This document shows, one piece after another, positions 14,437 to 57,827 of a stretch of DNA of 61,421 bases; positions within the stretch are counted from its first letter, which is position 1, and every line of letters begins with the position of its first letter. Under the pieces are notes generated by a model. It was not told the DNA's origin, ran no database searches, and worked only from the letters and a program-made list of their open reading frames with translations. The stretch covers positions 1 through 61,421 of the forward strand of contig JACPDH010000018.1 in NCBI GenBank assembly GCA_016184115.1, in the 5' to 3' direction. The translations under genes were made by a program, and so were the position numbers. The stretch comes from Acidobacteriota bacterium. GTDB taxonomy: Bacteria > Acidobacteriota > Thermoanaerobaculia > Gp7-AA8.

Positions 14437-15104
14437 GGATTGCCGACCTTCCCCTCGACGAGCGGCCACGCGAGCGACTCTTCCGTCACGGACCCCAGAC
14501 ACTCTCCGACGCGGAGCTCGTGGCGCTCCTGCTCGGATCCGGCACGGCGGGCGCGAGTGCGATCGACGTCGCTCGCTCCCTGCTCGGCGACGGGCTCGTA
14601 CGAATGTCACGGCGCGACTGGAGCCTCGCGCGACGCGAGCGTGGCGTCGGTGCGGCGAAGGCCGCCCGCCTCGCTGCCGCGTTCGAGTTAGGCCGCCGTC
14701 TCGCCGCACACACCGATGGCGATCGCGACCCCGTGCGCGACCCGATCGGCATCGCCCGAAGCCTCGTTCACCGCTACGGCCACTACGACCAGGAGCGGCT
14801 CGGCGCCGTCTTCCTCGATGCGAAAAACCGCCCCATCCGCGAGCGCGAGATCTACGTCGGCACCGTCAACGCCACGACCGTTTCGACGCGAGACATCCTT
14901 CGCATCGCTCTCGACGAAGGCGCCGTCTCCGTCGTCATCTTCCACAACCACCCCTCCGGCGACCCCTCTCCGTCCGGAGACGACCTCCTCTTCACCCGCC
15001 AGATGGTCGAGGCCGGCAAGCTCCTCGGCATCGAAGTCGTCGATCACCTGATCATCGGATTGAACAAGTTCGTGTCGCTGAAGCAGAGGGGGGTGATTCT
15101 GTGA
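14427..15104 (+). CDS. radC: RadC-family JAB/MPN protein
   Basis: 225 residues. An N-terminal helix-hairpin-helix part (LSDAELVALLLGSGTAG) is followed by a JAB/MPN domain with the metal motif HNHPSGDPSPSGDD and an upstream Glu in REREIYVGTVN. Family members (ComM/RadC/DUF2466) have a metalloprotease-like fold; a role in DNA repair is doubtful, so only the fold is claimed. ATG 14427 was chosen because it begins at the conserved MPLRIADLPLDERPRERL N-terminus and overlaps the cobB end, giving translational coupling. A longer in-frame extension upstream runs through cobB and is not coding in that frame. Confidence 0.92.
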   Translation: MPLRIADLPLDERPRERLFRHGPQTLSDAELVALLLGSGTAGASAIDVARSLLGDGLVRMSRRDWSLARRERGVGAAKAARLAAAFELGRRLAAHTDGDRDPVRDPIGIARSLVHRYGHYDQERLGAVFLDAKNRPIREREIYVGTVNATTVSTRDILRIALDEGAVSVVIFHNHPSGDPSPSGDDLLFTRQMVEAGKLLGIEVVDHLIIGLNKFVSLKQRGVIL

Positions 15105-15147
15105 GGCAGAAGAAAGGTCATAGGTCAAAGGCAGGCACCTGGTGTTC

Positions 15148-15373
15148 CGTCGCGTAGCGACGACATACGTTAGCCCCCGGTGGCGAGCCCGCGAAGCAGG
15201 CGATGCTACCGGGGGGAACACGTCGACGAAAATTGTCGCGCCGCGTAGCGGCGCCGGATCTTCCGCCGCTACGCGGCGGGGAGGATTCTCCCGCCTCGCT
15301 TCCCCCGGTTCCCTCGTCCCCGCTTCGCGGGGCTCGGTCACCGGGGGCTACGATACGTCGTCGCTACGCGACG
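15148..15373. repeat. Nested palindrome with CGC-GTA-GCG hairpin units
   Basis: Outer arms 15148-15190 and 15328-15373 are complementary over about 40 nt with few mismatches. Inside and within the arms are small perfect hairpins built on one theme: CGTCGC-GTA-GCGACG, CGCCGC-GTA-GCGGCG, CCGCCGC-TAC-GCGGCGG and CCCCGC-TTC-GCGGGG. The architecture resembles REP/BIME clusters. No transposase is adjacent. Confidence 0.7.
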
Positions 15374-15448
15374 AAGGGACGCAATCCGCTATCTACTCTG
15401 GCTCACAGCCTGAGGGCTGTCGTTCGCCTGCTTTCGCCTCTCGTCCCC

Positions 15449-15481
15449 AAAAAAGGCGGAGGGGCTCACCGCCCCTCCGCC
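15449..15481 (-). terminator. Intrinsic terminator of ilvE
   Basis: On the minus strand an 11-bp stem GGCGGAGGGGC/GCCCCTCCGCC with a 5-nt loop (plus-strand 15455-15481) is followed by six T residues (15449-15454). It lies 36 nt past the ilvE stop, a classical rho-independent terminator. Confidence 0.85.
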
Positions 15482-15516
15482 TGCTTTGACCTCTGACCTA
15501 TGACCTTTGACCTGCC

Positions 15517-16470
15517 TTACGTCGCCGCCAACGCCACCTTCTTCGCCGGAACGACGGGTGTCAGCCAGTGGTATCGGTCCTCGACCTCACCGGTGATGTA
15601 GTCGAAGAAGGCCTTCTGGATCTTTTCGGTGACGGGGCCGCGACGGCCTGCGCCAATCGTGATGCGGTCAATCGAGCGGATCGGCGTGACTTCCGCCGCA
15701 GTGCCGGTGAAGAACACTTCGTCGGCAACGTAGAGAAACTCGCGCGGGATGTCCTGTTCGATCACCTTGAAGCCAAGATCTTTGGCGATCGTCAGGATCG
15801 AGTCGCGCGTGATGCCAGGCAGCACCGAGGCTCCGAGCGTCGGCGTGTAGATGATGTCGTTACGGACGATGAAGATGTTCTCGCCCGAGCCCTCGCTGAC
15901 GTAACCACGAACGTCGAGCGCGATTCCTTCTGAGTAGCCATCCGCGTCCGCCTCGAGGCGGATCAGCTGCGAGTTGAGGTAATTGCCGGTCGCCTTCGCC
16001 ATCGCGGGGAATGTGTTAGGCGCCATGCGCTCCCACGACGCGACGCGCACGTCGACGCCCTGCTCGAGCGCTTCTTTACCGAGGTACTTCCCCCACTCCC
16101 ATGCGGCGATGCAGACGTCGACCGGGCAGTTGCCGGGAAAGACACCAAGCGAATGGAAACCGCGATAGACGAGCGGGCGGAGATAGCAGCTCTCGAATCC
16201 ATTGGCCAGAACGGTGTCGATGCATGCCTGATTGAACTCTTCAGGCGTGTACGGAATCGCCATGCGGTAGATTTTCGCGCTGTCAAAAATGCGGCGTGTG
16301 TGCTCGCGAAGCCGGAAGATCGCGGAGCCCTGCTTCGTCTTGTAGCAGCGGACTCCCTCGAAGACGCCGGATCCGTAGTGAATGACATGGGAGAGGATGT
16401 GGATTCGGGCATCGGCGAAATCGACAAGCCGCCCGTTCATCCAGATTGTCTTGACTTCTTCGAAGGGCAT
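15517..16470 (-). CDS. ilvE: Branched-chain amino acid aminotransferase
   Basis: 317 residues of a fold-type IV PLP aminotransferase that makes valine, leucine and isoleucine from their 2-oxo acids with glutamate. It shows [19 protein letters not shown], the PLP Lys159 in MAKATGN, and the signature [23 protein letters not shown] at 16470 was chosen over an upstream ATG at 16521 because GGAGG sits 5 nt before it and the protein then begins [14 protein letters not shown], the usual family start. It has its own promoter and terminator, so it is monocistronic. Confidence 0.95.
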
Positions 16471-32904: not shown

Positions 32905-32976
32905 CTTCAGGTCATAGGGCGAAGGTCACAGCAGGCGACCTTTGACCTTCGATCTTCGACCTTTGACCTTTGAGCT
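32905..32976. repeat. Heptad repeat F (GGTCRAA type)
   Basis: It begins 1 nt after the serine protease stop. The right part (32936-32976) read on the minus strand is GGTCAAA, GGTCGAA, GATCGAA, GGTCAAA. The left part (GGTCATA, GGGCGAA, GGTCACA) is partly complementary to it. No long perfect stem. Confidence 0.55.
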
Positions 32977-39819: not shown

Positions 39820-39882
39820 ATCTGTTCGGGCGGGGGCGCGCGCGCGTCGTGTCCCTCCCCGGGAATTACCCGACGAACGATT

Positions 39883-39990
39883 GTCGGGAAGTTAGAACGT
39901 AGAACGATGAATCGAGAACCCAGAAAGAAGTCGGCGCCGCACCCCATTTCTGGGTTCTCAATTCATCGTTCTACGTTCTAACTTCCCGAC
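39883..39990. repeat. Heptad inverted repeat C, 44-nt arms
   Basis: Arms 39883-39926 and 39947-39990 pair with a single transition mismatch. The 7-mers are GAAGTTA, GAACGTA, GAACGAT, GAATCGA, GAACCCA, GAAA, again each starting GAA. The 20-nt loop contains GGCGCC. It lies between argG and argH. Confidence 0.85.
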
Positions 39991-40042
39991 ACGGAAACGA
40001 TTACAAACGCACACACAGACAGCAGGCAAACGAACGAGCACG

Positions 40043-41464
40043 ATGAAACAAAAAGCCCAACGATCGACCACGACCCGCACCAACATGTGGGGCTCCCGTT
40101 TCGCGACCGCGGCGGACGCTCGCCTTCGCGCGTTCAACGACTCGTTCCGATTCGACTGGCGCCTGCTCGAGCAGGACATCGCCGGGTCGATCGCCTGGGC
40201 CGAAGCGCTCGGCAAGGCGGGAGTGCTCTCGCAGCGCGAGGAGCGGCGCGTCGTCCGCGCGCTGCGAGAGCTCCTCGACGAGACGAGCGGGAAGACGCTC
40301 CCTCTCGACGCCCACGAAGACGTCCACTCATTCGTCGAGTCGGCGCTCTCCCAAAAGGTCGGTGCACTCGCGAAAAAGCTCCACACCGGCCGCTCGCGTA
40401 ACGACCAGGTCGCAACCGACCTGCGACTCTGGCTTGCCGACGCGGCGCTCGAGGCAGTCTCTCTTCTCGCGCCGCTCGCCGCCACGCTCGTCGCGCTCGC
40501 AAAGCGCGAGGCCGCCACGCCGATGCCCGGATACACGCATCTCAAGCAGGCAGAGCCGGTGACCTTCGGCCACTGGTGCCTCGCCTACGTCGAGATGCTC
40601 TTCCGCGACGCCGACCGCCTTCTCTCCGCGTACGGCCGGGGCGACGAGTGCCCGTTAGGCAGCGGAGCCCTCGCGGGCTCGCCCGTCGAGATCGATCGCG
40701 AGGCGCTCGCCTCCGCGCTCGGCTTCGCACGCCCTTCCGCAAACTCGCTCGACGCCGTCTCCGACCGCGACTTTGCCGCCGACTACCTCTACGCCTCGAC
40801 GCTCCTGCTGGGGCATCTCTCGAGGCTCGCCGAAGACCTGATCTTCTTCTCCTCGGACGAGGCCGCCTACGTCGAGCTCCCCGACGCGATGGCGACCGGC
40901 TCGTCGCGCATGCCGCAGAAGAAGAACCCCGATGTCCTCGAGCTCGTCCGCGGCCACGCGGGACGGGCGATCGGCGAGACCACCGGCTTCCTCGCGCTCC
41001 TCAAGGGGCTGCCGCTCGCCTACGACAAGGATCTGCAACTCGACAAGGAGCCGCTCTTCCGGATGCGCGAGACGCTCGCCGCCGCACTTCCGGCGCTCGA
41101 GGCGCTCGTCGCAGGCCTGACGTTGAACCGCGACCGGATGCTCGCAGCGGCATCGAGCGACCTACTCCTCGCGACCGCCGTTGCCGACGCGCTCGCGGCC
41201 CGCGGGATCGCCTTCCGCGAGGCGCACGAGATCGTCGGCCGGCGGATCGCCGAGGCGATCGCGAAGAAGACGACGCTGAAGCAGCTCGGCCCAGGCGGCG
41301 GCATCACCGCCGCCGACCTGCACGCGCTCGACCCGGCGCGCTCGGTTGCGGCAAAAAAGAGCATTGGCGGCACGTCTCCGAAACGAGTACGGAGCGCGGC
41401 CGTGGCCGCCGCGAAGCGCGCGAACGCGCTCGCTACTCTGATAGCGAAGGAGAGCCGGCGATGA
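40043..41464 (+). CDS. argH: Argininosuccinate lyase
   Basis: Up to 473 residues. It releases arginine and fumarate. Family marks: MWGSRFA at the N-terminus, HTGRSRNDQVATDLRLW, TPMPGYTHLKQAEP and the superfamily signature GSSRMPQKKNPD. The conserved part begins at the second ATG (40085); the 14 residues before it (MKQKAQRSTTTRTN) have no homology feel, and neither ATG has a clear ribosome-binding site. The stop overlaps the argJ ATG. Confidence 0.96.
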   Translation: MKQKAQRSTTTRTNMWGSRFATAADARLRAFNDSFRFDWRLLEQDIAGSIAWAEALGKAGVLSQREERRVVRALRELLDETSGKTLPLDAHEDVHSFVESALSQKVGALAKKLHTGRSRNDQVATDLRLWLADAALEAVSLLAPLAATLVALAKREAATPMPGYTHLKQAEPVTFGHWCLAYVEMLFRDADRLLSAYGRGDECPLGSGALAGSPVEIDREALASALGFARPSANSLDAVSDRDFAADYLYASTLLLGHLSRLAEDLIFFSSDEAAYVELPDAMATGSSRMPQKKNPDVLELVRGHAGRAIGETTGFLALLKGLPLAYDKDLQLDKEPLFRMRETLAAALPALEALVAGLTLNRDRMLAAASSDLLLATAVADALAARGIAFREAHEIVGRRIAEAIAKKTTLKQLGPGGGITAADLHALDPARSVAAKKSIGGTSPKRVRSAAVAAAKRANALATLIAKESRR

Positions 41465-42642
41465 AACTGCCAAAGGGCTTCACGGCCTCGGGGATCCGGT
41501 CGGGGATCCGCAAGAAGCGTCCCGACCTCGCGCTCATCGTCGCCGAGAAGGGGGCGAACGCCGCGGCAATCTTCACGACGAATCGCATCGTCGCGGCTCC
41601 CGTCACGATCTCGAAGGCGTCGCTCCGTGCAAGCGGAGGGCGCTTGAAGGCCGTCGTCGTGAACGCTGGCTGCGCGAACGCGGTCACCGGAAAGGAAGGC
41701 CACGCCGCGGCGAAGCGCGTTCAGGCGCGCGCGGCCGAGCTCCTCGGCTGCACGAACGACGAGATTCAGATCGCCTCGACAGGCGTGATCGGTGTGCTAC
41801 TGCCCGACGCGAAAATCCGCGCGTTCCTTCCCGACGCCATAGCACGCCTCTCCTCGGGTGGCATCGAAGCAGCGTCGCACGCCATCCTCACGACCGACGT
41901 CGGACCGAAGGTCGCGCAGGCGAGCTTCCCGTGGAACGGCGGACGCGCGCGCATCGTCGGCATCGCGAAAGGTGCCGGCATGATTCACCCGAACATGGCG
42001 ACGATGCTCTCGTTCATCACGACCGACGCTCCGGCGACGCCCGCGTTTCTGAAGCAGGCGCTCGTAGAGGCGGCGTCGACGAGCTTCAACGCGATCTCGG
42101 TCGACGGCGACACGTCGACGAATGACACCGTCCTGCTCATGGCTTCGGGTGCAGCGGGAGGCCCGGCGATGAAAGGCGGTACGGAGAGCGCTGCGTTCGT
42201 CAAGGCGCTGCAACAGGTCTGCCGCGAGCTCGCCTGGATGATCGTTCGCGACGGCGAAGGCGCCACCCGCGTGATGGAAATCGAGGTCACCGGCGCACGG
42301 AGCGACCGCGACGCGAAGCTCGCCGCGCACGCGATCGCGACCTCGCCGCTCGTCAAGACCGCGCTCCATGGCGGCGACCCGAACTGGGGGCGCATCCTCG
42401 CCGCCGCCGGGCGCAGCGGCGCGCGATTCAACCCGAAGCAGGTGTCGCTGCAGTTAGGCGCGATCACGCTCGTGGCGAGTGGGCAGCCCTGCGCGTACGC
42501 GGAAAAGGACGCCGCAAAAGTCGTATCCCGCGAGCGTGTCCCCGTTCTTCTCTCGCTGGGAACCGGACCTGGCAAGGCGGTCCTCATGTCGTGTGACCTG
42601 GGGCACGACTACGTATCGCTCAACGCCGACTACCGGAGCTAA
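41461..42642 (+). CDS. argJ: Glutamate N-acetyltransferase / amino-acid N-acetyltransferase
   Basis: 393 residues. It recycles the acetyl group from N-acetylornithine to glutamate; bifunctional members also use acetyl-CoA. The self-cleavage site is the Thr181 of GMIHPNMATML, which becomes the nucleophile. Also visible are NAGCANAVTG, STGVIG, SFNAISVDGDTSTNDT, GDPNWGRILAAAGRSG and the C-terminal HDYVSLNADYRS. It overlaps argH by 4 nt and runs 23 nt into the convergent pseudouridine synthase gene. A cyclic ornithine pathway is implied. No argF or argA is present in the window. Confidence 0.95.
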   Translation: MKLPKGFTASGIRSGIRKKRPDLALIVAEKGANAAAIFTTNRIVAAPVTISKASLRASGGRLKAVVVNAGCANAVTGKEGHAAAKRVQARAAELLGCTNDEIQIASTGVIGVLLPDAKIRAFLPDAIARLSSGGIEAASHAILTTDVGPKVAQASFPWNGGRARIVGIAKGAGMIHPNMATMLSFITTDAPATPAFLKQALVEAASTSFNAISVDGDTSTNDTVLLMASGAAGGPAMKGGTESAAFVKALQQVCRELAWMIVRDGEGATRVMEIEVTGARSDRDAKLAAHAIATSPLVKTALHGGDPNWGRILAAAGRSGARFNPKQVSLQLGAITLVASGQPCAYAEKDAAKVVSRERVPVLLSLGTGPGKAVLMSCDLGHDYVSLNADYRS

Positions 42643-57704: not shown

Positions 57705-57827
57705 GGAGGGGCCTGGGGGTCAGACCTCAACTTTAAAGTCAACGGGCCGCCAGCTGGCGGCCCGTTGACTTTAAAGTTGAGGTCTGACCCCGACTTTAAA
57801 GTTGAGGTCTGACCCCCAGGCCCCTCC
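57705..57827. repeat. REP-like palindrome with a duplicated arm
   Basis: A perfect 76-nt palindrome (57716-57791, centre AGCT at 57752-57755) is followed by an extra copy of its right arm (57792-57827), which pairs with the outer left sequence from 57705. Alternative foldings compete. Core words are GTCAGACCTCAAC and CTTTAAAGT. It begins 22 nt after the nrfA stop and truncates the next reading frame. Confidence 0.8.

Follow-up and report, generated by a model that had tools for sequence, protein, structure and literature searches.

The convergent genes radC and ilvE of this genome are separated by a gap of 412 nt (15105–15516 in the window, the name used here for the whole stretch of 61,421 nt that was analysed). 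The question raised by this locus is what the gap is made of, and whether it is a place where mobile repeat units nest into one another, as a preliminary description made from the letters of the sequence had proposed. The reading that we consider likely is that the gap is a nest of two layers: a slot with heptad arms, tied to an S23-type element, which holds a dimer of REP-type units.

Layout and fold of the radC–ilvE gap

One neighbour of the gap matches the RadC profile (PF04002, 127.7 bits) and the other, which faces it, is by its profile match a class IV aminotransferase (PF01063, 170.5 bits), for which the gene name ilvE is the label of the preliminary description. The outermost feature is a pair of inverted arms (15101–15131 and 15490–15520; 84%) written in heptads of the form AGGTCAN and TGACCTN. 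Inside these lies a second pair of arms of 35 nt (15148–15182 and 15339–15373; 89%), which bounds exactly 226 nt (15148–15373), and the gap also holds a perfect inverted pair of 15 nt (15239–15253 and 15264–15278). The theme CGTCGCTACGCGACG, which makes the CGC-GTA-GCG hairpins, was found with at most two mismatches at four positions of the gap (15148, 15239, 15264 and 15359). The main features are collected in Table 1. The heptad arms around a 226-nt inverted repeat, the four or more small hairpins and the ilvE terminator had all been noted in the preliminary description and are borne out; its statement that nearly every base lies in an inverted repeat was too strong, as 77% of the bases are paired in the minimum free energy (MFE) fold.

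Table 1. Coordinates of the features discussed, as positions in the window.
Feature	Position	Strand	Remarks
Left heptad arm (AGGTCAT AGGTCAA AGG)	15115..15131	-	directly follows the stop codon of radC; 111 places in the genome carry homologous heptad dimers
Right heptad arm (TGACCTN, four units)	15484..15513	+	directly before the ilvE stop codon
First REP-type unit	15148..15253	+	hairpin U 15148–15162, REP stem-loop 15174–15215, hairpin U′ 15239–15253
Second REP-type unit, inverted	15264..15373	-	hairpin U′ 15264–15278, REP stem-loop 15302–15347, hairpin U 15359–15373
Intrinsic terminator of the ilvE transcript	15449..15481	-	hairpin 15455–15481 (stem 15455–15465/15471–15481); six A at 15449–15454, the U run on the minus strand; also in the sister gap and the C25 copy
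Composite duplicated at C25	15113..15517		identical at 378/397 aligned bases, with 8 gap positions
Gene-less hairpin with GAA-type heptad arms	39882..39991		arms shared with the PF05635 element of C118 (L156)

The predicted fold of the gap is far more stable than its composition would give. As RNA, the MFE is −263 kcal/mol against −172 ± 5.6 kcal/mol for 60 shuffles (z −16.4), and as DNA the fold has a z of −12.4, a stability that none of 100 shuffles reached. Exact inverted 9-mers take up 48% of the gap (mean of 200 shuffles 2%, maximum 14%), and the share taken in by exact inverted 7- to 10-mers is 45–60%. When 593 segments of 412 nt were scanned over the 61 kb, the top value (0.37) fell to the segment that starts at 15142. 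A search of the whole window against Rfam returned two tRNAs only, and the gap does not lie within a 23S rRNA.

The preliminary description had also proposed that the genome be searched for the units of the gap. The gap proved not to be unique: its own genome (G000) gave 83 matches to it on many contigs, a second whole composite among them.

REP-type units of the inner layer

The inner layer belongs to a REP-type family of fixed geometry, in which a hairpin U, a REP stem-loop and a hairpin U′ follow one another over ~105 nt. The fetched DNA of G000 and of a sister species (G001) contains 24 such units, 18 in the former and 6 in the latter. The distance from U to REP is 20 nt in 22 of the 24 and 21 nt in two, with five other positive distances up to 120 nt. 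The REP stems retain CCCCCGG/CCGGGGG, many of the inner loops are different palindromes, and the tag at the base of the stem reads TTAG in 19 units, GTAG in 4 and ATAG in 1. A strict REP pattern, GYTAGCCCCCGGT, was found at three places only among 20 relatives including the genome itself; since the majority of units read CTTAG, this pattern was too strict, and a scan for U and REP tokens took its place.

Head-to-head dimers of the unit are found in the window, at C25 and at a transposase locus on C98. The genome has eight IS200-like (PF01797) matches, and the gene at C98:45401–45841 (PF01797, 81.5 bits; NCBIfam IS200, 57.1 bits with a cut-off of 55) is flanked on its left by a U/REP unit and on its right by an inverted unit. 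The order of the window dimer, U-R-U′/U′-R-U, is that of the C98 locus without the gene, and an arrangement of inverted units is described for RAYT loci and GTAG-type REP dimers in PMC3733652. Relatives of the C98 protein are present in 7 of the 12 genomes searched; among 11 other relative loci that were read, U and REP tokens were found together at one (L359, in G001), REP tokens only at one (L365, in G001), U tokens only at L362, and neither at eight. The hairpin repeat of the gap is probably mobile, and the REP dimer would most likely have been put there by the RAYT-like IS200-type transposase of the genome.

Several other repeats were seen on the way. At L069 (9528–9743) a tandem array of 20 nt (10.8 copies by TRF), the unit of which contains half of the U hairpin, adjoins the RAYT-like gene. 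A second RAYT-like gene (46% identical) stands at L070 (1500–2850) among palindromic repeats of different sequence, possibly a REP family of its own. An inverted repeat of ~137 nt at L148 (3093–3229) matches several dozen places in G001 in both orientations, and in the window (57705–57827) two perfect inverted repeats (38 nt without a loop, and 36 nt) surround GGGGTCAGACCTCAACTTTAAAGTC and are possibly the ends of another mobile element.

Heptad arms and PF05635 genes

The heptads of the outer layer are likewise dispersed. The dimer TGACCTHTGACCT occurs at 111 places in the genome (100 of them among the matches listed with positions), compared with 0 for a control of reversed letters. Examination of 45 heptad sites, from the window and 54 fetched loci with gene calls by a simple scoring of our own, placed none of them within a predicted gene. 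Both arms are present at 16 sites, in the order AGGTCA...TGACCT at all 16, and at most sites in this genome the heptads are without any gene. A degenerate second AGGTCA/TGACCT pair lies in the window at 32909–32976, its arms a few bases apart, and at L070 (3196–3445) a long array of AGTCCTN heptads seemingly extends across a neighbouring gene's reading frame.

In G001 radC and ilvE are convergent too, around a gap of 658 nt with the same terminator as that of the window. Where the window has the REP dimer, this gap holds a small gene of the S23/four-helix-bundle family (PF05635, 104.8 bits), and its arms are of other letters, GGCGAGAGGCGAGAGGCGATGA and CATCGCCTCTCGCC, that is AGGCGAN rather than AGGTCAN. 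These arms fall under the automatic heptad threshold; scored as an inverted pair they reach 26.5, a value attained by none of 300 shuffles (mean 7.8). In two other members of the family the gap measures 64 nt (G011) and 26 nt (G003). In a genome of another genus (G007, L258 on C222) an armed PF05635 gene with TTAGCTC heptads stands on the contig just ahead of the radC match, close to the same radC–ilvE pair.

By analogy with this sister gap, we infer that the outer TGACCTN arms belong to, or derive from, a stem-armed S23/PF05635 element. The own genome has five PF05635 genes, none at C100 (the contig of the window) and none with TGACCT arms, so that what speaks for a descent of this slot from an S23 element is the sister gap, together with analogy. 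A different account is that two unrelated insertions entered the same gap, an S23 element in G001 and REP units in G000, and that the TGACCTN arms are unrelated to S23 elements. The difference in arm letters would fit it, as would the finding that none of the seven PF05635 genes of G000 and G001 is TGACCT-armed. The arms stand, though, at the same gap edges in both species, with a common terminator between them, and at other orthologous sites the letters of the two arms shift in concert. At a locus between two ABC-transporter genes (named from the ORFs) a PF05635 element is found in five genomes at the same place and in the same orientation. Its arms read AGTGCTG, AGTACTG, mixed A/G-GTGCTG, AGGACTG and AGTGCTG, and in every case the opposite arm is the complement. 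The arms therefore change together, through either selection for pairing or the copying of one arm onto the other. At the C59 and C106 sites, where both flanks can be aligned, G000 has a PF05635 gene within arms of AGTCCTG and GCGGAAT type, and the G001 counterparts are gene-less with arms of unrelated letters (GAATTGA; GTTGTTA/TAACAAC). We hold the account of two unrelated insertions to be unlikely.

Other slots show similar behaviour: at L107/L329 both arms are retained around unrelated inserts. The nesting of mobile-type units that the preliminary description suspected is supported, in that two families are nested in the gap and the nesting recurs in the C25 composite and at two places in G001 (for which 36 regions out of the 53 matches listed were fetched). 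At slot L104/L327 heptads and a REP unit stand together in G001, and the orthologous slot of G000 is without the REP unit; at L345 heptads and REP units are present in G001, and the corresponding junction of the window, near 42641, has neither (one flank was comparable there, the other being lost at the end of the G001 contig). The radC–ilvE gap would itself be a hot spot in the sense first meant if its two different elements entered separately.

The link between heptads and PF05635 genes extends well beyond this genus. The idea came from loci L143–L162; the loci of a broad set and L249–L274 were fetched later. The broad set consists of the 80 best of 540 relatives in the alignment of one armed protein, which makes it no random sample; they come from named genomes of many phyla, and 76 of the 80 were testable; the four left out had a flank of <200 nt, a rule which also removed 5/46 loci of a class set and 1/18 ilvE control loci. 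A period-7 array was found within 350 nt of the PF05635 gene at 34 of the 76 loci, on both sides at 13, and 42 had no heptad array at the threshold used. Other periods (5, 6, 8–12) were seen at 0 to 4 of the 76, period 8 being found at four; the arms of the PF05635 gene at L313 (Gemmatirosa) are also of period 8, CTCCTGCC, rather than 7. An inverted-arm score of at least 16 was reached by 53/76 loci (the other 23 scoring lower), compared with 8/76 in direct orientation and 6/152 with exchanged flanks; the corresponding counts were 34, 5 and 2 at a score of 20 and 15, 2 and 0 at a score of 25.

The smaller sets and the controls were scored alike. In the class set (41/46 testable) heptads were found at 25 loci, inverted arms at 32, direct at 3 and exchanged at 2/82; for the 21 class loci fetched after the idea had been formed, the figures were 13, 14, 1 and 0/42, and for nine plasmid loci (9 of 27 records) 8, 8, 2 and 1/18. 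PIN-gene controls gave heptads at 0/30 and, in the arm-score recount of 28 loci, inverted arms at 0/28, direct at 1 and exchanged at 1/56, and ilvE control loci gave heptads at 2/17, inverted arms at 1, direct at 1 and exchanged at 7/34. None of the eight IS200-like genes of the genome has heptads. The letters of the heptads vary from locus to locus, and the two arms within one locus match: among 31 two-armed loci the consensus heptads are complementary at 6 or 7 of 7 positions in 27. Four match to the same degree in direct sense, and two of these four are complementary as well. By title, armed loci come from Nitrospirae, Phycisphaeraceae, Pyrinomonadaceae, Dehalococcoidia, Desulfobacterales, Thiohalophilus, Armatimonadetes, Ignavibacteriae, Opitutaceae and Omnitrophota. 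Two loci on cyanobacterial plasmids (L308 and L311) have an armed PF05635 gene within a CRISPR operon, with cas6 and cas4 as its neighbours, and at L307 such a gene stands between the two ribonucleotide reductase genes.

These counts bear on the view that heptads are simple repeats made by slippage in non-coding DNA, their inverted order and their link with PF05635 following from placement in long gaps. That heptads are gene-less at most sites here, that some lie 1 kb away from PF05635 genes (4/76), and that PMC4692102 and PMC4679880 treat them as simple repeats all agree with it. Slippage, however, does not make inverted copies, so the inverted arms (with the contrast to direct, exchanged and PIN counts just given) count against it, as does the single order of the two-armed TGACCT sites, and we regard this view as decidedly improbable. 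Gene-less pairs can moreover share their arms with a gene-bearing element. The hairpin at 39882–39991, which lies in the gap before the ORF at 40043 (argG–argH, named from the ORF reading), has GAA-type heptad arms of 45 nt that are 98% complementary, with a loop of 20 nt, and these arms also flank the PF05635 gene at C118 (92.5% on both sides). A second gene-less pair with the same GAA-type arms is present at L089 (798–888). A lone copy of the arm was seen in the window at 2820–2859 (87.5% over 40 nt).

A little less probable still is the view that the whole gap is a module for termination and mRNA ends, a bidirectional terminator with REP hairpins under selection, and that mobility is incidental. 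It accords with the very stable fold, with the conservation of the terminator in the sister gap and with an excess of convergent gaps, which make up 15/43 heptad sites with two known neighbours compared with 7/57 gene pairs in the window. Against this, 28/43 heptad sites are not convergent, the content of the gap is wholly different in the sister species and the gaps of the family relatives are of 64 and 26 nt, and the REP units are dispersed and adjoin a transposase gene.

A second composite, a proposed history and known systems

The second whole composite, at C25:57870–58265, also lies in a convergent gap, between other genes than those of the window copy on C100. The two differ at 19 bases in addition to the gap positions in Table 1, and their likeness begins within the left arm and reaches as far as the border of the stop codon of ilvE. 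That duplication and repeats are artefacts of assembly, as 126 contigs and several REP matches at contig ends might suggest, is very improbable, given these 19 base differences and 8 gap positions between copies that sit between different genes, and the recurrence of the same REP unit elsewhere in the sister genome, which was assembled separately. Next to the same peptidase gene as at C25 (67% DNA identity), G001 has a region with a plain terminator that lacks the composite. The second neighbour of this region differs from that of C25; because only one neighbour matches, it is not a clean empty site, and copying may have gone either way between C100 and C25. No target-site duplication was seen among the compared sites, no pair of which is close enough for one to be read.

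A history of the gap can be proposed in four steps. A heptad-armed S23 element would have occupied the gap in the ancestor of the genus, as the arms and terminator in both species suggest. In the lineage of the window, which is without the gene, the REP dimer would then have entered, probably by means of the RAYT-like enzyme. Copying of the composite between C100 and C25 followed, presumably through the arms and most simply by recombination or conversion via heptads common to dozens of sites. Lastly, to judge from the fold and from the biology of intervening sequences (IVS), the arms may form a long RNA stem around the insert that may be processed; removal of the stem as in rRNA intervening sequences, by RNase III, would make inserts tolerable at gene ends.

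On a wider scale, the results suggest that many heptad repeats in bacteria resemble the arms of S23/IVS-type elements, a point that is new; a search for literature that joins heptads and PF05635 or four-helix-bundle genes in general found none, most subscription journals and all of bioRxiv being outside its coverage. We lean towards the view that heptad repeats, which have been known for decades from cyanobacteria, xanthomonads and other groups with no role assigned to them, are largely the arms of one widespread class of stem-armed elements, the gene of which is S23/PF05635 and the known case of which is the rRNA IVS. Each element would have its own heptad, and its arms would be rewritten together over short evolutionary times, complementarity being kept by selection on the stem or by arm-to-arm copying; gene-less pairs such as that of radC–ilvE would make up the non-autonomous majority, at which other repeats, REPs among them, could dock. 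Three subjects that were described apart are thereby joined: REP/RAYT repeats, unexplained heptad repeats and the S23 protein of rRNA intervening sequences. With pairing arms, a protein, and sites with and without the gene in hand, the nature of heptad repeats and the mobility of IVS become testable, and should the complementarity of arms hold at scale, a simple rule would suffice to detect S23 elements and related gene-less forms in any genome.

The gene-less hairpins (39882–39991 and L089 798–888) resemble MITEs in that a gene-bearing element of their own genome has the same arms; they differ from MITEs in that the gene-bearing form is without a transposase domain and no target duplication was seen. 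Heptad repeats of the Nostoc/Calothrix type are named STRR. Like these, and like the heptads of Xanthomonas and Beggiatoaceae, the present arms are dispersed, intergenic, tandem units of 7 nt. Xanthomonas has 70–75 inverted pairs of GGGAATC heptads, 83% of its heptad repeats occupy the same position in two species, and no tie to mobile elements is drawn in the available text (PMC4692102). Among the TAACTGA repeats of Beggiatoaceae, nearly always unpaired, one inverted case is given in 170 sets (PMC4679880), and Anabaena heptad repeats are rarely paired. In the accessible parts of these accounts no gene, element or origin is assigned to the repeats, whereas here PF05635 genes lie between the pairs. 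Xanthomonas has a PF05635 protein, XCC0516, which is PDB 2gsc (E 5.6e-28).

The inner layer is like REP/BIME/REPIN sequences with RAYT in its short intergenic palindromes, its head-to-head dimers and the IS200-like gene between inverted units (PMC3733652). In contrast to a REP or REPIN, the present unit is compound (U, REP stem-loop, U′), of ~105 nt, and nested inside another repeat family; in contrast to REPs with a GTAG (or CGTC) tag at the base of the stem, its tag is TTAG in 19/24 units and GTAG in 4. The outer layer compares most closely with the 23S intervening sequence of Coxiella, for which PMC4990558 gives an encoded S23 protein, a terminal stem of 28 bp, excision by RNase III, and tandem GACAGAT heptamers ahead of the ORF in a number that varies by strain; its authors think that the S23 protein, which is without known function, is not made. 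The present elements lie between protein genes, and in most cases heptad arrays make up both of their arms; the copy in the window is without an ORF, lost or never had, so that complementary terminal arms are present there and the PF05635 ORF only in the same gap of G001. What they share with the Coxiella IVS is terminal inverted repeats that form a stem, an S23/PF05635 ORF in the loop, and tandem heptamers.
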